64,000 bases of DNA. Origin: Blepharisma japonicum (lineage: Eukaryota; Ciliophora; Heterotrichea; Heterotrichida; Blepharismidae). The position numbers and the translations under genes are program-made. The stretch covers positions 83,729 to 147,728 of the forward strand of contig CATKHK010000102.1 in NCBI GenBank assembly GCA_949751835.1. The letters are read 5' to 3'. Below the pieces are notes generated by a model that saw only the letters and a list, made by a program, of their open reading frames with translations, was not told where the DNA came from and made no database searches. Below are positions 4,808 to 41,717 of this stretch, piece by piece; position 1 is the stretch's first letter, and the number at the start of each line of letters is the position of its first letter.

Positions 4808-5530
4808 TTAATTTTCATCAATAATTTTATGAATTATCTCTGCAACCTCATCAATCTCCCCTGTGAAGAAATGATCACAATTTAGCCTAAAAAATCCTTT
4901 ACATTTTTCTTTTAATTCTTTCATTAGCTCTATTGATTCTGAAAAAGGAACTTTGTCATCAGCTTCTCCATGAACAATGTAAATATTCCCTTGAGCTCTT
5001 TCGCAATAATACTTCATATCAAGGTTTAACATTTCCTGGATCATTTCTTCCGTAATCCTCCAAGTTTTCCCAAAAGCAGTATGCAGGATATAGCCGTTCC
5101 TATGGACTTCTTCAAAGCTGTCTACAATAAAGCTAGGAAGATTGCAGGCTGAAAATCGAGGAGCTAGCAATATTATGTTTTTAACCTCACTGTGCAAGGC
5201 AGAATAAATAATTACACCACTTGACGCTTTAGAGTGCCCAATAATTCCTTCAACTTCATAACCTTGTGAAACTAAAAATTTTACAGCATCATCAATATCC
5301 CCAGCATCTCTGACATAGCCTGCATATGAATTTTCTCCTTCACTATTTCCACTACCTGTCAGATCAAATCTAAAGATATTGATTTCTAGTAATTCACAAA
5401 TTAATTCGTAGTTGAATAAAATGTCTGATAGAAATCATTGAGAGATGATGTATATTTTTTTATCTTGGGGATTTTTTACTGAAAAGTTGTATGATAGCTG
5501 CAAGCCATTTCGATTTGTAAAGAAGCCCAT
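4808..5530 (-). CDS. Alpha/beta-hydrolase, array copy 1 (Ser retained)
   Basis: A 240-residue protein starting MGFFTNRNGLQLSY, with one internal TGA read as Trp (IISQW). It has the small alpha/beta-hydrolase layout of lipase/S33-like or dienelactone-hydrolase-like enzymes. There is an N-terminal strand pair, then FDLTGSGNSEGE and DAGDIDDAVKFLVSQGYE ahead of the nucleophile elbow GHSKAS at about residue 118. This is the only copy of the nine with Ser at the elbow. The acid is in GEADDKVP and the base is His in NCDHFF near the C-terminus, so a complete Ser-Asp-His triad is present. No signal peptide, so probably cytosolic. Substrate is unknown. The downstream neighbours in the array are more like each other than like this copy. 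Confidence 0.85.
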
Positions 5531-5636
5531 CTTTAGAAGGATAATTGAAACGCAGTAAAAAATAATGGCTTTTTTATATAAAAAAGCAACTATAAATTGC
5601 CTAATTATTTATAACCCTCGTATAAAAGTTATTCTG

Positions 5637-6365
5637 TTAGCTATTTATTATTTCATGAATGATCTCAACAACTTCATCCATTTCTGTACTCAAGAAATGG
5701 TCAGCACTATTTAACGTGAAAAATCCTTTGCATTTTTCTCCCAACCTTCCCACATATCCCAATACATCAGAATGTGGGGCATTTTCATCATCTATTCCAT
5801 GAATTATATAAATATCGCCCTTTATTTTGTCGCAATAATAATCCATATCAAAACTCATAAATTCATCAAGCATTTCTGTTGTAAATCTATATTCTTTTCC
5901 AAAAATTGAATGTCTGATTTCTCCATATTTCTTAACTTCTTCAATGCTTTTTTTGAAAAAATCTGGCATATTAAAAGTCCTTGCATAAATTGCAGGAGCA
6001 ATTGCTATTATTTTTTTGACTTTTCCATATAGGGCAGAATAAATAATAGTATCGCTGCCTCCTTTTCCATGCCCAATAATTCCATCAACTTCATAGCCTT
6101 GGGAATTCAAAAATTTCACAGTGTCATCAATATCTCCAGCATCCCTTTCAAAATGACTATAAGAATATTCTCCTTCACTGTTTCCACAGCCTTGAACAAA
6201 CAGTTTGAACGTATTTACTTCTAAAAACTCTACTAGGTAGTCACAATTAAATAAGAGATCTGAAAAAAGTCACTCGCAAATGATATAAATTTTCCTATCA
6301 TTTATGTTTTTAATTGATAAAGTATAGGATAATTTAAGTCCACTCCGATTTGTAAAATAATCCAT
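5637..6365 (-). CDS. Alpha/beta-hydrolase-like, copy 2 (Gly at nucleophile)
   Basis: 242 residues from MDYFTNRSGLKLSY, complete when the TGA in the segment ICEW is read as Trp. Same fold and spacing as copy 1, but the elbow reads GHGKGG, so the Ser nucleophile is Gly. The acid region is GIDDENAP and the His is in ADHFL. Unless another residue substitutes, it should lack ordinary esterase or peptidase chemistry, which suggests a binding or regulatory role. The intergenic distance to copy 1 is about 100 bp. Confidence 0.8.
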
Positions 6366-6987
6366 ATTATAAAAATAGACTTTAGAAAATTAGATCAGAT
6401 ATAATGCTGTGATATCCCATTTTGGCAGAAAAATTTTTTTTGCTGGTGTGATTTAGATATTATAATTTTAATTTTAAGTAGGTGACTTTTAAAGCAAAGT
6501 GCTTAATCTTAATAACGCCATTGCTATTTCATTATGAATTACTGACTTTCTTAATTTAATGGCGTTTATGCCAACAAATAATTTATTAAATGTAAAAAAT
6601 ATTAAAATGAATTATTTTTATTTTATTTGTGAAATAGAATATAAAAGTTTAATCATGTTTAAATGGATTAAAGCACATACTCCTTTAATTTATCCAATAT
6701 AATTTTATTTAAGGATTAAGCTATTGATCAAAATCTCCAATCTTAGATACGTAACTGCAGATATTCATATTTCTAGTTAAATATGCTTTTATACTAATAA
6801 AAATGAAAATATTTACAGCTAGATAGGCAAACTATCTTGACTAGAAAGTCTGAAAAGGGACCATAATATTAATAATTTGTCTCTATTAGAGCTTATCAAT
6901 TCATCATGGCTACTGCTTCTATTATATAAGGAGATAGACTCATTAAGCAGATTATGTATAAATAATTCTAGAGTACAACATATACTT
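6366..6987. other. Intergenic spacer in hydrolase array
   Basis: AT-rich spacer of about 620 bp, no frame or RNA recognised. A short plus-strand frame at its end overlaps the antisense of copy 3 and is not credible. Confidence 0.5.
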
Positions 6988-7716
6988 CTAGCTCTCTATT
7001 ATTTTATTAATTATCTCAGCAACTTCATCCATTTCTGTTGTGAAGAAATGATCACAGTTGTTTAACGTAAAGAGTTCTTTGCATTTGTCTCCTAATTCAT
7101 TGCAATATTCCACTACGTCTGAATAAGGAACTTTGTCATCATCAGTTCCATGGATTAAATAAATATCACCTTTTATCTTGTCACAATAGTAATCCATATC
7201 AAGACTCATAAATTCATCAAGCATTTCTGTTGTGAATCTATATTCCTTTCCAAGAACTACGTGTTTGACTTCCCCAGATTTCTGAATTTCTTCAATGCTC
7301 TCGCGGAAAAAATCTGGTAAGTTGAAAGTTGTCATATAAATTGCCGGAGCTATCGATATTATTTTTTTGACATCTCCATATAGTGCAGAATAAATAATAA
7401 CATCGCATCCTCCTTTTGCATACCCAATAATTGCTTCCACTTCGTAGCCTTGAGAAACTAAGAAGTTTACAGCATCATCAATATCTGCAGCATCCCTTTC
7501 AAATCCGCCATATGAATACTCTCCTTCACTACTTTCGCAGCCTGTCACAAAAAATTTGAACGTATTTACTTCTAAAAGCTCCATAAGTAAGTCACAATTA
7601 AACAAGACTTCCGAAAGAAGCCATTGACAAATAATGCTAATTTTCCTGTCATTTTGGTTTTTTATTGAAAAGCTATAGGATAATTTCAGTCCACTTCGAT
7701 TTGTAAAATAATCCAT
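6988..7716 (-). CDS. Alpha/beta-hydrolase-like, copy 3 (Ala at nucleophile)
   Basis: Clean 242-residue frame needing no TGA, which confirms the family length independently of the code. The elbow is GYAKGG, with Ala replacing Ser. The acid motif GTDDDKVP and base motif NCDHFF are intact. The substrate-side cap region RFTTEMLDEFMSLDMDYY is shared with copies 2 and 6. No signal peptide or membrane segment. Confidence 0.85.
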   Translation of the reverse strand: MDYFTNRSGLKLSYSFSIKNQNDRKISIICQWLLSEVLFNCDLLMELLEVNTFKFFVTGCESSEGEYSYGGFERDAADIDDAVNFLVSQGYEVEAIIGYAKGGCDVIIYSALYGDVKKIISIAPAIYMTTFNLPDFFRESIEEIQKSGEVKHVVLGKEYRFTTEMLDEFMSLDMDYYCDKIKGDIYLIHGTDDDKVPYSDVVEYCNELGDKCKELFTLNNCDHFFTTEMDEVAEIINKIIES

Positions 7717-8388
7717 ATTATAAACTTATGCATAAATGTTTAGAAAAGAAACAAAAATTCTTTTTGCAGGACGAATTTGTAATTTATATGGCAGCACGAA
7801 TTTCAATTTCAATATTTTTTTTAATTTTGTAACTATACTGCAAATTATGAATAAATGCATATTTTTAATCTTAAATATTTAATAATATTAGTATCTTATT
7901 ATTATAACAAGCACATTGTAAATGCTACTAAATGCATCTCACAATATAGATCTTCGATTTTTAAAAAATTAAATTATTTTGGAAGCTTCTAGGCTTAGTC
8001 TGCAATAAATGATATACCCTAAGATTCTCAATTTATAAGAATATGGCTATAGATACTCAGATCCCGAATGTTTAAGGGTTCACTTAATTATCAAACTTGC
8101 AAGGCTCATGATATTAACGAATAAGCCCAAATTGTGTCATCCACTTCAAAAACAGGTATCTTTGCATCATAACATGCATTTTTAAGAATTCATTTTATAT
8201 TGTTACTATTCTTAAGGTATTAATTATTAAATGCAAGCATTTTCAAAATACACTCTAGCAATCATTATGCAATAGTAATATAAGGATTTGTGATTAATAG
8301 CCTGTGTATAAAAGTTGATAAAATCAATACTATTTTATTCATTAACATATAATTTTCTTCAGAATGAAGCTTAAATTAATTAAATCTG
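7717..8388. other. Intergenic with a duplicated segment
   Basis: Non-coding. The segment at about 7985-8110 resembles 13865-14010 (shared words include CAATAAATGATA and AATCTCAATTT), so spacer DNA was duplicated along with the hydrolase units. No gene recognised. Confidence 0.45.
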
Positions 8389-8728
8389 TTAACTATTTAA
8401 TATAATCTTATTTATAATTTCGGAAAGCTCATCCATTTCTTCAGCAAAAAATGATTCGTAAATAAAATGCCCTTTACATTTCTCTTTTAATTCTCTTACA
8501 TATTCTCACGATTCTGAAAAAGGAATTTTATCATCAGCTTCTCCATGGATAGCGTAAATCTCTCTTTTGACTCTTTCACAGTAAAGTTTCATATCCAGAT
8601 GTGTCATTTCATGAATCATTTCTTCAGTTATACTTCACTCTTTTCCAAGGGCTGAATGAATTACTGACCCTTTTCTATGAACTTCATCAATACTATCCAA
8701 AATAAATTCAGGTATAACTCACCGGGTA

Positions 8729-8873
8729 GATATTTTTGCAAATTTATGGAATTGATCGGACCATATCAACTACTGAAACGCTGGGTTGCTTAGCAACAAA
8801 TACTGCCTGAAACTTAGCATAATTTCTAGCCTAGGGCAAGTCAAAGGCTGTCCTTAACTACAAGCTAGAGGTA
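8729..8873. mobile_element. IES-like insertion, 145 bp, TA-bounded
   Basis: Inserted in hydrolase copy 4. Both boundaries read GGTAGA, and excision leaving one TA restores the frame (segment RFSTRW then IPEFILD). It contains stop codons in the host frame and a small palindrome GTTGCTTAGCAAC. It does not start with GT, so it is not an intron. The IES reading is inferred from the paralogue alignment. Confidence 0.7.
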
Positions 8874-8997
8874 GAAAATCGTACACTTAGCGATATAATC
8901 TTTTTAACTTGGCCATATATGGCCGAATAAACAATTGCAGCAACAGCAGCTTTATAATGTTCAACAATGCCTTCAACTTCATAGCCTTGAGAAATTA

Positions 8998-9077
8998 TAG
9001 CTTTTTTTGCCTGGAGTGGCACATGCAGCGTACCACTCCAGAAAAGATAAAAGCAGGCTCCACACATGGGTTTACTA
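8998..9077. mobile_element. IES-like insertion, 80 bp, TA-bounded
   Basis: Second insertion in copy 4. Excision between TA at 8996-8997 and TA at 9076-9077 leaves a sequence that aligns base for base in length with the other copies. It contains a 9-bp inverted repeat CTGGAGTGG / CCACTCCAG (9011-9019 and 9033-9041). Its length is not a multiple of three. Confidence 0.75.
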
Positions 9078-9328
9078 AGTATTGCACAGCGTCATTAATG
9101 TCCCCAGCATCTCTTTCATGCCCACCATATGTATTTTCGCCTTCACTGCTTCCACACATGTGAGATAAAATGAAAAGGTGCTTCTAAAAATTCACAGAGA
9201 AGTTGGTACCTAAATAGGAGCTCGGAAAAAAACGACTGGCAAATGATTAGGATTTTTTTATCATTTGGGTTTTTAATTGAAAAGCTACAAGATAACTTGA
9301 GTCCATTTCGGTTTGTAAAATAATCCAT

Positions 9329-9760
9329 TCTCCAGTAATAATAAGTGTAGATAATGCTATATTTTTAAAATTATATCTCAACTTTTATAAGATTAAATAG
9401 GAGAGCTAGATAGATTGCTTAATTTAATGCTTTAAATAGCAAATGATTGGTTTAATAAATTAAATTTATAATCTTTTTTCGAAAAGGCTTTTCATATGAA
9501 CTATAAGATTATAAAGCCAAAAGTACAATAAAAAATGATTAAAAAATTCGACAATTATAAATTAATAGATATTAGAGTGAGAAACATCTTATAATCTATT
9601 GTATAAAAAGATTGAGTGGAGTTTATAAAAAGAGCTCAATAAATTAAAAAATTAATTAGAAAAATGAACCCCTAAAATTAATTATTATGATAAACCATTT
9701 GTTATGAAATAGAGTTACTTTAAATATTCAGACATGAATGAATTAGCTGCATTATATTTT
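9329..9760. other. Intergenic spacer
   Basis: About 430 bp of AT-rich DNA with no feature that I can support. Confidence 0.5.
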
Positions 9761-10489
9761 TTAGTTCTCCATTATTTTATGAATTATCTCAACAACTTCA
9801 TCTATTTCTGTAGTAAAGAAATGATCACAGTTATTTAGGACGTAAAAACCTTTGCATTTTTCTCCTAATTCATTGCAATATTCCAACACCTCCGAATAAG
9901 GGATATTGCTATCATCTATCCCATGGATTATATGAATATCTCCTTTTATCTTATCGCAATAATAATTCATATCAAGGCTCATTAAATCATTAAGCATTTC
10001 TGTAGTAAGCCTATATTCCTTCCCAAAAAATGTATGTATGATTTCACCAGACTTCTTAATTTTTTCAATGCTTTTATTGAAAAATTCTGGTCATTTAAAA
10101 GTTGCCATATAAACAGCAGGAGCTATCGCTATAATTTTTTTGACATCTCCAAAAAGTGCCGAATAAATTATAACATCATTTGCACCTTTCCCATATCCAA
10201 TAATTGCTTGTACTTCGTAGCCTTGGGAAATCAAAAATTTCACAGCATCGTCAATATCCTGAGCATCCCTTTCAAATCCAGCATATGAGTACTCTCCTTC
10301 GCTATTTCCACAGCCTTGAGCATAAAAACTGAAGATATTTGCTTCTAAAAGCCCGATAAGAGCCTCATAATTAAAAAATACATCTGAAAAAAACCATTGG
10401 CAAATTATGCAGATTTTCCTGTCATTTTGGTTTTTTATTGATAGGCTATAAGATAACTGCAGTCCATTTCGGTTGATAAAGTAATCCAT
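9761..10489 (-). CDS. Alpha/beta-hydrolase-like, copy 5 (Gly at nucleophile)
   Basis: 242 residues from MDYFINRNGLQLSYSL. A TGA at about 10092 (TFKWPEFF) must be read as Trp to join the two halves. The elbow is GYGKGA (Gly for Ser), with GIDDSNIP and NCDHFF retained. It is most similar to copy 7, sharing the KWPEFF segment encoded with TGA. This suggests 5 and 7 arose from one duplication. Confidence 0.8.
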
Positions 10490-11338
10490 ATTATCAGTTT
10501 AATCGCTAAATTTTTTTATTTGATTAATATTTCATGGCATCGAGGAGTTTTGGATTCAAATGCCAATATTAAATTAAAAAGTCTGTATATCATAAATAAG
10601 AATCAGAATTATGGACATTGGCTAGAATCAATAAATTATTGTTAAATTTATTGGAAATTTTAAGTTTTAAAATACATAAATTTTTAATCCTTTCAGAATT
10701 GTCTAAATAAGATTTTAAAAAAATGACTGGCAAATTATTTGTATTTTTATCAATTAGGCTTTTATTTGAAAAGCAACAAGATAGTATAAATTCAATTCAA
10801 ATTATCCAAAATTCAATAATTATAAGTTTGATCAGCATATAAATAGTATTTGCTCTCTTTTAGAATGAGCAAGATTTGCCAAAATCATAGCTTTTAGGAA
10901 ATTTTTAGATAGAAAGCAATAAAGAATTTTAATTAAAAGCCAAGCTATTTTAATGATTTTACACAATTACAGTATAAACTGCAGATTATAATACGTTAAA
11001 TTAATAATTATCTTCTTGCTACTGAATATTTAAAATTATAAGAAATTTATATTAAAAACACTTACTTCTGATTATTTTCTAATTTTTAAGATTTTGAAAA
11101 ATTCTTAATTTTGAGACGAGGTATTTGGATATCACTGAAACTCTAAAATTTTAAATAGAAAATAGGGGATGTCAAATATTTCATGCAAGAAACTTCACTA
11201 AGATATATATAAGATATTAAAAAGAGAACTTTACAAAATTATTTTCTTACTTAAACTTAATCCACTACATCAGTAATATTATCAAATAGGCTTAATATAG
11301 CAGCTCAAAAATATAATCCTATTGCGTAATTTATAATA
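10490..11338. other. Intergenic with hydrolase relic
   Basis: AT-rich spacer of about 850 bp holding the decayed N-terminal piece described separately at 10700-10808. The rest shows nothing I can name. Confidence 0.45.
10700..10808 (-). pseudogene. Relic of hydrolase 5' end
   Basis: Nucleotide resemblance to the first ~110 bp of the intact copies (words such as TGACTGGCAAATTATT and AAAAGCAACAAGATA on the plus strand), without an intact frame. It marks a lost array member. Confidence 0.55.
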
Positions 11339-12067
11339 TTAGCTTTCTATTATTTTATGAATTATCTCAACAACTTCATCCATTTCTGTTGTAAAGAAAT
11401 GATCACAGTTATTTAGCGTAAAAAGTCCTTTGCAATTTTCTTTTAATTCCTTAGCGTATTCTAATACATCTGAAATAGCAACTTTGTCGTCATCAGTTCC
11501 ATGTATTATATAAATTTCACCCTTTATTTTATCGCAATAGTAATCCATATCAAGGCTCATAAATTCATCCAGCATTTCTGCAGTAAATCTATATTCCTTT
11601 CCAAGAACTCTGTGCCTAACTTCTCCAATTTTTTGAATTTCTTCGATACTGTCTTGGAAAAATTGCGGCAAACAGCAAGATGTCATATAGATAGCTGGAG
11701 CTATCGCTATAATTTTTTTGACTTCTCCATATAGAGCAGAATAAATAATAGCGTCATTTGCTCCTTTTCCGTATCCAATAATTCCATCAACTTCATATCC
11801 TTGAGAAACTAAGAATTTTACTGCATCATCAATATCTCCAGCCTCCTTTTCAAATCCACCATATGAATACTCTCCTTCACTGCTTCCACTTCCCGTAGCA
11901 AAAAACCTGAATGTATTTACATCTAAAAACTCGATAAGAAATTCATAATTAAACAAAACTTCAGAAAAAAGTCATTGACAAATTACATAGATTTTCCTAT
12001 CATGTTGGTTTTTTATTGATATGTTATAAGATAACTGCAGCCCACTTCGATTGATAAAATGATCCAT
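11339..12067 (-). CDS. Alpha/beta-hydrolase-like, copy 6 (Gly at nucleophile)
   Basis: 242 residues, start MDHFINRSGLQLSY, with one TGA as Trp (ICQW). The elbow is GYGKGA. The acid motif reads GTDDDKVA and the base NCDHFF. It shares the CCLPQFFQDSIEEI segment with copy 8. No targeting signal is seen. Confidence 0.8.
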
Positions 12068-12510
12068 ATTATAAGAGTAGGAATAAATTAATAATATTCT
12101 TATCAAATTCAGCTTATGCAAAGGAAAAAAGCATTTTTATTGGCATTAAATAAGAGCTTAGCTTGCCAATATAAATTTGTATGAAGAGCTTGCAAATAAA
12201 AGGCATGATCTGCAATAAATCGGTAAGGTAAATTGCTATGAAATACTAAATGATCTGGAATTGGAAATACCAAAATGCGTGAAAACTATTATTTCATAAT
12301 TTTGTAGCATAAGTCCAAATTAAAAAAATTTATTTTAGCTGGCTATATTAAATTTGAAATTATAAAAATTTAATGCTATTTTTTATAGGTTTTAAGATTT
12401 ATTGTAATTCTATCACTGATAGGTTTTCTTATGACTACTATAAGCCATTGCTGTGAAATAGACTTTCGTAAAACAGTCAAGCGTGAATAACTTTAGCTAC
12501 ATTATATTTT
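12068..12510. other. Intergenic spacer
   Basis: About 440 bp, AT-rich. Words around 12190-12250 weakly resemble the duplicated spacer segment at 7985 and 13865. No gene. Confidence 0.4.
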
Positions 12511-13239
12511 TTAACTATCTATTATTTTATTAATTATCTCAACAACTTCGTCCATTTCTGTAGTAAAGAAATGATCACAGTTGTTTACCGTATAAAAGCC
12601 TTTGACTTTTTCTCCTAGTTCTCTGCAATATTCCACTATCTCTGAATATGAGATATTATCATCATCAGTCCCATGGATTATATGAATATCTCCTTTTATT
12701 TTTTCGGAATAGTAATGCATATCAAGGCTCATCAATTCTTCAAGCATTTCTGCAGTAAATCTATATTCCTTTCCAAGAGCTATATGTCTGACTTCACCAG
12801 ATTTCTTAACTTCTTCAATACTTTCATTGAAAAATTCTGGTCATTTAAAAGTTTTAGCATAAACTGCAGGAGCTATCGCTATAATTTTATTGACATCTCC
12901 ATATAGTGCCGAATAAATAATAGCATCATTTGCGCCTTTCGCGTATCCAATAATTGCTTGCACTTCATAGCCATGAGAAATCAAAAATTTCACAGCATCG
13001 TCAATGTCTCCAGCATCCCTTTCATGTCCGCCATATGAGTACTCTCCTTCGCTATTTCCACAGCCTTGGACATAAAATCTGAAAATATTTGCTTCTAAAG
13101 ACTCGATAAGAAACTCATAATTAAAAAACATTTCTGAAAAATATCATTGACAGATGATACAGATTTTCCTGTCATTTTGGTTTTTTATTGATAGACTACA
13201 GGATAACCGTAGTCCATTTCGGTTGATAAAGTAATCCAT
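12511..13239 (-). CDS. Alpha/beta-hydrolase-like, copy 7 (Ala at nucleophile)
   Basis: 242 residues from MDYFINRNGLRLS, with two in-frame TGA codons read as Trp (one after the N-terminal strand region, one in the FKWPEFF segment shared with copy 5). The elbow is GYAKGA. The acid region GTDDDNIS lacks the usual Pro. NCDHFF is retained. Confidence 0.8.
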
Positions 13240-14840
13240 ATTATAGTTTATTATAAACCGAGAATAACATTGACATGTGAAAATTTTAAGAATTAATGCC
13301 AATTAAAATTATCCTTGAGGAATTAATATGAAAACAAACTTCTTATAGCACTGTCAAGGTTCTTCATAATGAAATACTGGCTAAAAGCAATAAATTATTG
13401 GTAGTTGTATTGAGATTTAAGTCTTAAAACTTACCATTGTTAATTTTAGTGTTAATTTTATTGTTAATTTATTTGGACATTTATATGTTATATTTTTTAC
13501 TTTTTAAAATAGTTCCAAATTAAAAATTATGACGTTTAATGATTTTTTTAAAATCCAGGAATGAAGAGGAAATATATTAATAAGAAAATATTCTCAATAA
13601 TGAGAGGATCTAATTACACATAAATTGTTGATATCTTTAAAGTTTTTTAAATAAATAATGGATTCTAGGAGCTTTTTGATCTAAATATCAGATACTCAAC
13701 GAGGTTTTCTCATTTCCTTGTGATGGAGCATAGTTATTAGGTATTCTAGTCGAAAATAAAGATATTCTTGATATAATTGAAAAGGAAAGAAAGTGATGGC
13801 TAATTTTAGGTCCATTTTCTTCATACCTATTACATTAGATCTTTAATTTTCCAATTATGTTTAAGCCTCGATGCTAGGCTAAAATAAATGATACAGCTTC
13901 AGAATCTCAATTTCTGGGAAATAACTATAGGTTTTATGAAGCATTCAATAAAAATAAAATCATTTGAAGGTTAAGGTAAATTGACTGAACTTGCAAGCAT
14001 ATGAGCTTTAATTAGATCAGACCTTTAAGTAATTTATGATGAAACGCAAATATTTTCAAGATTATGCTCATTTTCAGATTTTGGATAATATAATCTATAT
14101 ATAGCATGATGTAAATATGCATTTCCCCTTCTAAGTTTCCTCCATCTGCTGCTCAAAATGCAGCGTGCTAATTTCTAGATATTCACAAAGAAGTGGCAAT
14201 TGAATAAAATTTCTCCAAAAAATGATTGGCAGATGATTAGAATCCTTCTGTCATCTAAGATTTTTATTTGAAGTTACAATCCATTTGGGTTTTTAAATAA
14301 TATATATTTCAGCTTTTTCGCTTAATTGTGAATTTATAAAATCTTTCGAAATAGTGAAATAAGGATTAAGTTAGCTCTAAATATATTGACGGATAGGCAT
14401 AAATAAATTATCTTATTTATTTTTTTTTTTAATATTACAAGTTAAGAATAAGAGTTTGATCTTCTTGATTAAAAAATTCAAAATAAATATTAAATATTAG
14501 GAAAAATAAGATAGTTGACCAAATTTAAATATTTTAATCAATTATTACAATTTAATGTAGGTGTGCTGTTTATGCCATCATAAATTTATTATTAATTAAG
14601 GATAAAAATAAAGTATAATTCCTTCTAAAGCATATAAAAGATAATTTTTTATAATATAGCATATTGAACATTTTAAATTCACTCTTGTTGATGCTCTGTA
14701 TTAATTTTTGATTTTTAAAGTCAATTTACCAAAGTTTTATTATTTTTTACATAACTCTCAAATTATAATAATATTTTGTTTAAGAAATTACTACCAGATC
14801 GTCTGAAAAAAACTCGATATAATATTAGCGAAAAATTATA
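13240..14840. other. Long intergenic spacer with relic and duplicated segment
   Basis: 1.6 kb, the longest gap in the hydrolase array. It holds a hydrolase 5' relic at 14165-14310 and a copy of the spacer segment seen near 7985 (13865-14010). This indicates another lost unit. Otherwise AT-rich with no frame. Confidence 0.5.
14165..14310 (-). pseudogene. Relic of hydrolase 5' half
   Basis: Nucleotide similarity to the intact copies across the start region and following strands (plus-strand words ATTTCTAGATATTCACAAAG, TGATTGGCAGATGATTAGAA, CAATCCATTTGGGTTT). The frame is destroyed. Confidence 0.6.
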
Positions 14841-15569
14841 CTAAGAACTCTCTATTATTTTATGAATTATCTCAACAACTTCATCTAGTTCAGCTGTAAA
14901 GAAATGATCACAATTTAGAGTGAAAAATCCTTTGCATTTTTCTTTTAATTCACTAGCATATTCTAAGGCATCTGAAAGCGGAACTTTCTCGTCGGCTTCC
15001 CCATGTATTAAATAAATATCTCCTTTTATTTTTTCTGAATAGTAATCCATATCTAGGCTCATTAATTCGTCAAGCATTTCTTCTGTAAATCTTATTTCCT
15101 TTCCTAAAATGTGATGCATGACTTCACCAGTTTTTTTAATTTCATCAATGCTGTCTTGAAAAAATTGCGGCATACAGCAATTTGTCGCATAAATAATCGG
15201 AGCTAATGCAATAATTTTCTTGACTTCGCCATACAATGCAGAATAAATAATAGCATCATTTCCTCCTTTTGCAAATCCGATTATTCCATCTACTTGATAG
15301 CCCTCTGAAACTAAGAATTTTACAGCATCATCAATATCAGCAGCGTCCTGTTCAAATCCTCCATATGAATACTCTCCTTCGCTATTTCCACAGCCTTTAA
15401 AAAACAATCTAAACGTATTTACTTGAATAATTTCACAGAGAAAGTCGTAGCTAAATAAAACGTCTGAAAAAAACCATTGGCAAATGATATAGATTTTTCT
15501 ATCATTTTGCATTTTTATTGATAAACTATATGATAGCCGCAGCCCATTTCGATTGGTAAAATGATCCAT
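14841..15569 (-). CDS. Alpha/beta-hydrolase-like, copy 8 (Ala at nucleophile)
   Basis: 242 residues. The frame is open further upstream, but I place the start at MDHFTNRNGLRLSY (15569) because all siblings start there and the upstream extension is AT-rich and unlike them. It needs no TGA. The elbow is GFAKGG. The acid motif GEADEKVP and base NCDHFF resemble copy 1 more than the middle copies do. Confidence 0.85.
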   Translation of the reverse strand: MDHFTNRNGLRLSYSLSIKMQNDRKIYIICQWFFSDVLFSYDFLCEIIQVNTFRLFFKGCGNSEGEYSYGGFEQDAADIDDAVKFLVSEGYQVDGIIGFAKGGNDAIIYSALYGEVKKIIALAPIIYATNCCMPQFFQDSIDEIKKTGEVMHHILGKEIRFTEEMLDELMSLDMDYYSEKIKGDIYLIHGEADEKVPLSDALEYASELKEKCKGFFTLNCDHFFTAELDEVVEIIHKIIESS

Positions 15570-16501
15570 ATTATAATTTAAAGCTCGAATGATTAAATAA
15601 GACAGTATCGGTAGTATCTTTCTATTCAAACTAACGTTTATGATAAAGGAAAAATATTTTATTGAACTGTATAAATGCCAAAAACATGAATGAATAATTA
15701 GTAGATAAATAATCATATAGAGTAAAAGACTTTATTATTTAGTTCAAAAATAAATAATTTGATGAATTTTAAGTATTGGTTATTTAAGGCTGCTGGTTAG
15801 TTAAAATTAGGGTTTTATTATTTATAGCTCTATCTAAGAAAAACCTTCCAATAAGGCTAGTTCAACTATTATTGCAGGCGAACATCCTAGGGTATGCCAG
15901 AATTTTTCTCAGAAATAGTTTTGATCTGACTTTTGGATTGCTCTTAAAGCTGTCAGAATTTTGAAGTGCGCTTGAGAGATGCTGAGTCAATGGCTGGAGC
16001 TCCAACTAGGGATAGACTCGCCAACTAATATGTGCGACTCTGTCTTCGTCGTCAAACTAGTTGTATCCATGTTAAAGACCTTCTTAGTTTTAAAATCGTG
16101 TAATGGTGTTTTCGGTTTCAAAATATTATGCTGTATTTTGAAATAGACATCAATTAGCAGATTCATCGATTCATTTTAAAAATATTGATTTAACAATTTT
16201 TGCCTATAATAATTTGTTAAATTTAATGTATATGATTAATAGCTTATATTGAAATAAATGATGTGCTAAATATGCATAGAATAAATTTCTATTGATTAAT
16301 CTGTATTATTTCTATTTAATTGATGGTCTTCAGTTTTACTTAAGAGTAATTATCAGTCACATTAATCTTTATGAATAGATTATTTCATATTAAATCAATA
16401 TGCTCAATATATACAAAAATGGTTTTATTACAAAATTTGCAGTGAATCATAATGCTATATAATAATTAAATATTATGCATAACTATATTGTTATTTTTAC
16501 A
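15570..16501. other. Intergenic with a less AT-rich island
   Basis: Positions 15880-16090 are less AT-rich than the surroundings. They hold a 55-codon plus-strand ORF (15979-16146) with no recognisable family. It could be chance or a gene relic. No tRNA or other RNA fold is evident. Confidence 0.35.
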
Positions 16502-17224
16502 TTAATCTTCATCAAGAATTTTTTGAATTATTTCAGCGACATCATCTATATCTCCTGTAAAAAAATGATCACAATGTAAAATAAAAATCCCTTTGCATTT
16601 TTCTTTTAATTCTCTAGCAAACTCTAACGCTTCAGTATGATCAACTAAATCGTCTTCATCTCCATGAATTATATAAATATTTCCTATAGCATTTTCGCAA
16701 TAATATTTCATATCCACTCTCATTATGTCATCAATCATTTCTTTTGTCCATTTATATGCTTCTCCATAAGCTGAGTGCGTGATTTCAAGATTTTTTTGGC
16801 AATTTTTATAGTAGTTTTTTAAATTATAAGGTAAATTATTCATGTAGAACCTTGGAGCTAGTACCACAATTTTTTTAACTTTTCCATATATTGCAGAATA
16901 AATAATTGCATCATTTGCACTTTTACAGCTTGCGATAATTCCTTCTACTTGATAACCTTGAGAAACTAAGAAGTTTACAGCATCATTGATATCTTCAGCA
17001 TCCCTATTGAACTCTGCAAATGAATAGCTTCCTTCACTATTTCCTTGACCAGTGAAATAAAATCTGAAAATATTAGATTTTAAGCAGTGAATAAGAATTT
17101 CATAGCGGAAAAATATCTCTGAAAGAAAAGTTTGACAGATAATATAAATTCTTTTATCATCTGGATTCTTTCAAAAGTAGCTACAAGAAAGTCGTAGTCC
17201 ATTTCTATTTCTAAAATTCTCCAT
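16502..17224 (-). CDS. Alpha/beta-hydrolase-like, copy 9 (Cys at nucleophile)
   Basis: 240 residues, start MENFRNRNGLRLSCSY, with one TGA as Trp. It is the most divergent copy and pairs in length and cap features (LAPRFYMNNLP, KYYCENAIGNIY) with copy 1. The elbow reads ASCKSA, placing Cys at the nucleophile position. Cys nucleophiles are known in dienelactone hydrolases, but here the flanking Gly residues are also lost. The acid region is GDEDDLVD and the base HCDHFF. Activity cannot be judged from sequence. Confidence 0.8.
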
Positions 17225-19374: not shown

Positions 19375-20490
19375 ATGAGATCAAGCTTAGTTTTCCTTCT
19401 CCTTTGTACAGTCACTTTCGGCTTAGAATACCAATCCTGCAGTAAAATCACCTGCGGCTCAGGTACAAATAATCAATGCATATCAGTTTATTCCAATAAC
19501 AACACAGTCGTGGTAACTCCTTGTTCTTCATCAAGCGACTCATGCTCAGATAATGACCAATTTTCCACTACAACTGGAAACTGAACCACAGCCACTTGTG
19601 CAGCAAAACCAACTCCAGCGACCTCCGCAAGGGACTGCTCAGCAAATTCCACAACTTTAACAGGAAAATCATGCTGTACTGATTCAAACTGTATAAGTGG
19701 TAGCTGCAGCAATGGAATTTGCAAAGGACTTGCAAGTGGTGCCAATTGTACAGCTGATGAAGAATGTCAGTCTGGGTATTTTTGCAAAAATTCTATATCT
19801 GGGAATGGTTCGAATACTACGAACTCTACAAGCACTAGGACTTGTGCGAGCGTGCTGTCTAGTGGTGATGCATGTACTATTAATAATGAATGCCCTATAG
19901 GATATGGCTGCGACAATTCTACTTGTACCAAGCTTTTTACAAAAGATATAAATTCATCAGTTTCTGATAAAATGTTTTGCAAGTCTGATTTTCAGAGAAA
20001 TGGAAAATGTGATGGGATTTTGATATACACAAATAATGGTACCCAGCCTTTGTCGTCTCCATTTAAATGTAATTTAGGCGAACAATGTAAATATGTTTAT
20101 GCTACAGATGGGTCAGCTGCAGCCACAGATTGGTGCCAATGTGGAGGAGTTGATAATAGTACAGGATATTGTGGAAGCTTTGGAAATGTAATTGGCTTCT
20201 GGGATCAAGTTTTCCCTAAGCTTCAATATAGCAGTTCTGACTGTTCAGGGAGGTTTTCACATACTGATAATTTTACAGAATTATTTAATTGCAGCTCACT
20301 TTCTAGTAGTGAGCAACAATATTTGACGTCAATGAATGATCAAGCTACATACTGGACTTTATATGAATCTGGGGCTATTGATGCTTGTGTAAATCAGCTT
20401 GGGCTATTCCCTACAAATGTCAGTTTAAATTCTAGTGCTAGCGGAGCGATTATATTGGCAATTTCAGCAGTTTTATTAATATTTGGTTAA
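19375..20490 (+). CDS. Cys-rich GPI-anchored surface protein, 371 aa
   Basis: One frame when the TGA at about 19582 (TGNW) is Trp. Residues 1-16 (MRSSLVFLLLCTVTFG) form a signal peptide. The mature part is rich in Cys, Ser, Thr and Asn, with repeated spaced Cys motifs such as CTDSNCISGSCSNGICK and CPIGYGCDNSTC, similar in style to Dickkopf/EB-type modules. Many Asn-X-Ser/Thr sites are present. The C-terminus SSASGAIILAISAVLLIFG is a hydrophobic tail after small residues, a typical GPI-anchor signal. It is therefore expected on the cell surface, perhaps as an immobilisation-antigen-like or adhesion protein. Ligand unknown. Confidence 0.8.
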
Positions 20491-41617: not shown

Positions 41618-41717
41618 NNNNNNNNNNNNNNNNNNNNNNNNNNNNNNNNNNNNNNNNNNNNNNNNNNNNNNNNNNNNNNNNNNNNNNNNNNNNNNNNNNN
41701 NNNNNNNNNNNNNNNNN
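41618..41717. other. Assembly gap, 100 N
   Basis: Exactly 100 N, a conventional scaffold gap of unknown size. The identical 127-bp stretch on both sides (41491-41617 and 41834-41960) suggests that the true junction may be an overlap or a collapsed repeat. Confidence 0.95.

Follow-up and report, generated by a model that had tools for sequence, protein, structure and literature searches.

A tandem cluster of alpha/beta-hydrolase-fold genes in the ciliate Blepharisma japonicum belongs to a family whose members have repeatedly lost the nucleophile serine, and which we consider on balance to be a selected family of pseudo-hydrolases whose rebuilt pocket and lid would bind either a ligand or a partner protein, the binding itself being put forward as a hypothesis. 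The cluster occupies positions 4808-17224 on the minus strand of the analysed window, a 64,000-nucleotide stretch taken from contig C102 (positions 83729-147728) of a 45.2-Mb assembly of 224 contigs. Eight of its genes are intact (W1-W3 and W5-W9); one further copy, W4, is broken, and of another an N-terminal relict is left (Table 1). At the nucleophile elbow, Ser is found in only one of the eight intact copies, W1, and is replaced by Gly in W2, W5 and W6, by Ala in W3, W7 and W8 and by Cys in W9. Asp and His are present in all eight, while the HG oxyanion motif is present in none, copy 1 included. The elbow codons confirmed the statement in a preliminary description of this DNA that Ser is restricted to copy 1 and that eight of nine copies lack the nucleophile, a count that includes the broken copy (7/8 when intact copies are taken, with a Cys in W9). 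The relict, the loss of HG from all eight copies and a second cluster on contig C3 were added to that description.

Catalytic residues in the family and in control hydrolases

Genome searches, whose match counts are lower bounds, identified 25 intact family members, of which the window contains eight and contig C3 (95.5-122 kb) a further 14, with one each on contigs C4, C26 and C68. The amplification at a single locus that had been described was therefore found instead to consist of two clusters and single genes across the genome. The broken copy W4, a broken member of the second cluster (C3:107238-107946, the counterpart of copy 4, interrupted by an in-frame TAA), the distant outgroup C30 and the weak matches on C57, C22 and C38 stand outside the 25; the distant C9 was dropped from the tree, the codon models and all counts, and C30 from the codon models. 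The Ser nucleophile is gone from 13 of the 25 members (W2, W3 and W5-W9; C3_955, 985, 1131, 1145 and 1160; C26), and both clusters mix Ser-bearing with Ser-less members. Asp was found in all 25 and His in 20, the five without His (C3_955, 1131, 1145 and 1160; C26) being Ser-less throughout; one of them, C3_1145, carries Cys at the elbow. The earlier claim that Asp, His and overall length are kept in the intact copies thus held within the window (8/8; 240 aa in W1 and W9, 242 aa in the other six), but beyond it 5/17 paralogs, all Ser-less, have no His. The HG motif was retained by C68 alone, together with the outgroup C30, and was lost in 24/25.

No other Ser, Cys or Asp stands at the elbow of W2, W3 and W5-W8 in the alignments or in the structure model of W6, and a replacement nucleophile was rejected for these copies. 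Ser110 of W6, which is invariant in the window, W1 included, sits within the helix that follows the elbow. Although W1 keeps its Ser, it is one of the 24 members (of 25) without HG and so may not represent an ordinary enzyme among these copies; W9 may be a Cys enzyme.

As a control we used 11 full-length PF12146 genes from elsewhere in the genome, drawn from 22 matches (22 of 78 candidates were scored), 11 partial genes being left out. Ser was found in 10/11 of these and HG in 8/11, the other three reading HC. The family differed from the control in loss of Ser (13/25 vs 1/11, P 0.025) and of HG (24/25 vs 3/11, P 4e-5), and within the family His was lost from 5/13 Ser-less and 0/12 Ser-bearing members (P 0.04), these P values being merely indicative because related genes are not independent. 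The one Ser-less control gene, C90:69427-70362, reads GDGIGG, with Gly, and lies in a different S33-type tandem cluster; the seven other full-length genes read on C90 retain Ser.

Descent of the family and selection on its members

The motif columns were excluded from the tree, which rests on 217 columns; the fewest changes on it are four between Ser and not-Ser, three between His and not-His and one for HG. Forcing the Ser-less members into one clade, a group named after the first tree had been seen, made the tree 109 log-likelihood (lnL) units worse (p-AU 7e-42), and a single origin of the Ser loss was rejected on this basis. The Cys of W9 and the Gly or Ala of the other six Ser-less window copies may reflect one loss or two, the branch concerned having a support of 83/58. 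When the tree was rooted on C30, itself a long and uncertain branch, C68 branched off first (support 90/84), from which it would follow that HG was lost before the rest of the family radiated.

Codon models were built for a genetic code in which TGA is Trp (62 sense codons, 240 columns). Omega (dN/dS) was 0.156 over the 25 genes and 0.182 in the window Ser-less clade, where fixing omega at 1 cost 131.8 lnL units (2 delta lnL 264). The five Ser-less lineages, with omega of 0.184, 0.171, 0.209, 0.180 and 0.144, were not distinguishable, and all 19 NG86 pairs inside Ser-less clades gave values of 0.14-0.35. Because omega is well below 1 in every Ser-less lineage, we conclude that the Ser-less genes are preserved under purifying selection, with a slightly weaker constraint. 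The preliminary description had proposed that the frames are kept by selection in spite of the lost nucleophile and had named a dN/dS near 1 as the mark of decay; the value of 0.18 bears out the former, and decay was not seen.

In a two-class site model, 22% of sites fell into the class with omega 1, and these were concentrated in five pocket and lid segments, drawn once the list of fast sites was known (27/68 vs 17/172, P 4e-7); the pocket segments without the lid held 12 fast sites among 30 (P 1e-4). Entropy at the family elbow was 1.96 bits compared with 1.32 overall, whereas among nine control hydrolases, from C90 and C3:369606, the six elbow columns were all below the mean entropy of that family, and the columns of the catalytic His and Asp did not vary. 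Within the window Ser-less clade, by comparison, variability in the pocket segments did not exceed that of the remaining sites (P 0.32). Seven of the 14 residues that are fixed in this clade and rare elsewhere fall in pocket segments, D105 adjoining the elbow, a count given without a significance test. Our reading of these alignments is that the pocket may have been rebuilt once and then held.

We propose that the ancestor was, like C68, a conventional S33/feruloyl-esterase-like enzyme with HG, GHSKAGN, Asp and His, in which the HG motif was replaced once and early. Duplication into two tandem clusters would have been followed by at least four losses of Ser (to Gly/Ala/Cys, to Ala, to Tyr/Cys and to Met), after which some Ser-less lineages would also have lost His. 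The Ser-less genes have kept their fold and length, and in the window clade their pocket region varies no more than other parts; their products would most likely work without acyl-serine hydrolysis, possibly as a sensor, a carrier or a regulatory subunit.

The window locus

The copies and the relict are listed in Table 1. Six of the eight intact copies are readable only with TGA as Trp, TGA appearing in some copies where others show TGG, and the window genes end in TAA or TAG. Three-fold copies of the telomere repeat CCCTAACA gave 168 matches in the genome against none for the control in reverse; of the listed places, those on C11, C36, C47, C69, C78, C80 and C89 lie inside the first 421 contig bases and those on C4 at the contig end, with further places on C5, C6, C7, C17 and C38. 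Passages of the Blepharisma stoltei genome paper (PMC9942806) report both the TGA=Trp code and CCCTAACA telomeres for that species.

Table 1 Hydrolase-fold gene copies of the window cluster, with elbow motif and codon
Feature	Position	Strand	Description
Copy 1 (W1)	4808..5530	-	240 aa; elbow GHSKAS, Ser TCT; Asp and His kept; HG oxyanion motif lost (SQWF)
Copy 2 (W2)	5637..6365	-	242 aa; elbow GHGKGG; Gly GGA in place of Ser
Copy 3 (W3)	6988..7716	-	242 aa; elbow GYAKGG; Ala GCA in place of Ser
Copy 4 (W4), broken	8389..9328	-	elbow EHYKAA (Tyr; reads IVEHYKAA); His region altered too
Copy 5 (W5)	9761..10489	-	242 aa; elbow GYGKGA; Gly GGG
Copy 6 (W6), structure-predicted copy	11339..12067	-	242 aa; elbow GYGKGA; Gly GGA
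Copy 7 (W7)	12511..13239	-	242 aa; elbow GYAKGA; Ala GCG
N-terminal relict of an additional copy	14178..14297	-	best tblastn match W8 residues 4-47, 48% identity
Copy 8 (W8)	14841..15569	-	242 aa from the family ATG, frame open further upstream; elbow GFAKGG; Ala GCA
Copy 9 (W9)	16502..17224	-	240 aa; elbow ASCKSA; Cys TGT; Asp and His kept

The frame of W4 lost a net 5 nt early in the gene (hand count against W3), which breaks it apart from its two inserts. These are an 80-bp insert at 8998-9077, with TA at each end and an inverted repeat within, and a 145-bp insert at 8731-8875, with TCTACC at each end. Since removing either one brings back the family reading frame over its junction, the inserts look like internal eliminated sequences that were retained or fixed in the somatic assembly; when they were searched in the genome with their flanks, the sole match was the window's own copy. 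When the 600-nt upstream flanks of the eight genes were compared all against all (E 1e-3), a single non-coding match was obtained, of 54 nt between W5 and W7, the other match, between W1 and W6, falling within the coding sequence of the adjoining genes W2 and W7. An assembly gap in the cluster was excluded, the only N run of the window lying at the distant positions 41618-41717. Beyond the cluster, at window positions 19375-20490 on the plus strand, there is a Cys-rich open reading frame, hydrophobic by eye at its N-terminus, that weakly matches Dickkopf_N (27.9 bits against a cut-off of 25).

Fold, known relatives and possible function

In its predicted structure W6 has the alpha/beta-hydrolase fold, with the strand-elbow-helix arrangement and lid of that superfamily, and the elbow residue is Gly. 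The structure prediction suggested for each copy was carried through for this one, and it placed no other Ser or Cys at the elbow. The first strand of the model begins at residue 2 and no signal peptide was seen by eye in the window copies, so that these are probably cytosolic and a cell-surface role is somewhat less likely for that reason. All eight window copies score under the 27-bit cut-off of PF12146 (Hydrolase_4, S33), the best being W1 with 26.3 bits, and W2 passes AXE1 (PF05448) instead (24.0 vs 21). NCBIfam matches for W1, W6, W9 and C68 were all far under the curated cut-offs, such as that of W6 to TIGR01607 (PST-A; 26 bits, cut-off 218).

The feruloyl/cinnamoyl esterases and S33-type lipases (Est1E, LJ0536 and TTL lipase; Hydrolase_4) have the same fold, order of elements, length class and positions of Asp and His, and this group supplied the best Foldseek rows and was among the best VIA and sequence matches. 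In contrast to it, the Blepharisma family is Ser-less in 13 of 25 members and HG-less in 24. In the PDB, W1, C68 and the window profile found their best sequence matches in the OsmC-family esterase chains 5cml and 9wo1, with an alignment that spans the lid, but both chains retain GHSLGG and 9wo1, at 400 residues, is longer. The dienelactone hydrolase family uses a Cys nucleophile; in W9, Cys, His and Asp are present, with the elbow Gly and HG changed.

Loss of catalysis in this fold is already known, as the relevant passages on GID1, NDRG3 and AXR4 attest. The gibberellin receptor GID1, a hydrolase fold without catalysis that became a ligand receptor in plants, derives from hormone-sensitive lipases and has lost His while still using Ser and Asp (PMC3531792); the Ser-less window copies show the reverse, with Ser gone and His kept. 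In NDRG3 the whole triad is substituted and the path to the pocket is blocked (PMC7022630), whereas Asp is present in every member of the Blepharisma family. AXR4 is an accessory protein of the plant endoplasmic reticulum that is missing active-site residues (PMC10756756). The NDRG family, neuroligins and AXR4 are nonenzymatic proteins of this fold, and the Blepharisma family differs from them in having Asp throughout, Ser-bearing members and repeated loss of Ser within one genome. Judged from these accounts, none of GID1, NDRG3 and AXR4 matches its pattern of losses.

Because the Ser-less genes have kept their fold, their length and a constrained pocket, W2, W3 and W5-W8 most likely do not hydrolyse esters by the acyl-serine route. 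Given the kept fold, Asp and His and the re-fixed pocket, we hypothesise that binding of a ligand or partner is their most likely use; the receptor or binding role first suggested is drawn by analogy. A bolder version, which we think rather improbable, is that an esterase was turned into a multi-gene set of small-molecule sensors by switching hydrolysis off at least four times and reshaping the pocket, a protist counterpart of GID1/KAI2-type reception.

Three other explanations were weighed. The Ser-less copies could be regulatory or scaffold partners of Ser-bearing paralogs (W1, C68) or of another protein, acting through conserved surfaces while the pocket is vestigial. Ser-bearing and Ser-less members do stand side by side in both clusters, and nonenzymatic NDRG, neuroligin and AXR4 proteins are described as working through protein contact (passages of PMC10756756 and PMC7022630). 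We nevertheless judge this unlikely, as 27 of the 44 fast sites lie in the pocket and lid segments, where the window clade also has fixed changes, and, if the pocket were vestigial, drift should be visible inside that clade, which is not the case. Ranked just after it, and also unlikely, is catalysis without Ser, through a Cys nucleophile (W9, C3_1145) or with the His-Asp dyad as a general base (W2, W3, W5-W8). It would fit the Asp of all 25 members, the His of all eight window copies and the elbow Cys of W9 with Asp and His in place, and S, T or C are named as possible nucleophiles (in part of PMC10756756); but HG is lost in all the copies concerned, C3_1145 has Cys without His, and the Tyr and Met of other lineages, together with loss of His in 5/13 Ser-less members, are a poor fit to one retained chemistry. 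Decay of tandem duplicates after amplification, to which the broken W4, C3:107238-107946 and relict and the slightly higher omega on Ser-less branches could be ascribed, is scarcely credible and was rejected by the codon models, the Ser-less frames being moreover full-length at pairwise dS up to 1.4 where upstream spacers barely align.

Several points weigh against a family of binding pseudo-hydrolases. The W6 model is weakest in the oxyanion loop and lid (block pLDDT 51-70) and so shows no cavity reliably. Ser-less branches are slightly relaxed (omega 0.182 vs 0.134 where Ser is kept, P 0.004), selection tests reveal constraint and not its cause, and positive selection was rejected, no positively selected site class being found since M2a gains nothing over M1a. 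The late drawing of the pocket segments also belongs here, as does the His loop with 0/7 fast sites, and the 25 intact genes were picked for open frames, two further members being broken. All seven Ser-less window copies retain Asp and His, which would also fit residual chemistry. Ser persists in 11 of the 24 HG-less members, so that loss of HG need not have ended catalysis; the motif is in fact not strictly required, since HC takes its place in three of the 11 control genes with Ser, Asp and His (C90:157458, 159523 and 160756) and in the solved chain 5cml.

In the literature searched, which left most subscription papers outside, no earlier report of this family came to light, and the word 'hydrolase' was not found in the main text of the Blepharisma genome papers PMC9942806 and PMC9942856. 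Pseudo-enzymes of the alpha/beta-hydrolase fold in plants and animals are mostly settled families. The present radiation, described from a single Blepharisma genome, the only eukaryote searched, also cautions that neither a kept Ser, as in copy 1, nor a Pfam label, as for copy 2 with AXE1, is proof of an esterase. The likely ancestral type (C68), HG-less but Ser-bearing members and at least four Ser-less lineages stand side by side in this genome under measured constraint, which makes the order and cause of a change from enzyme to binder testable in a single organism.

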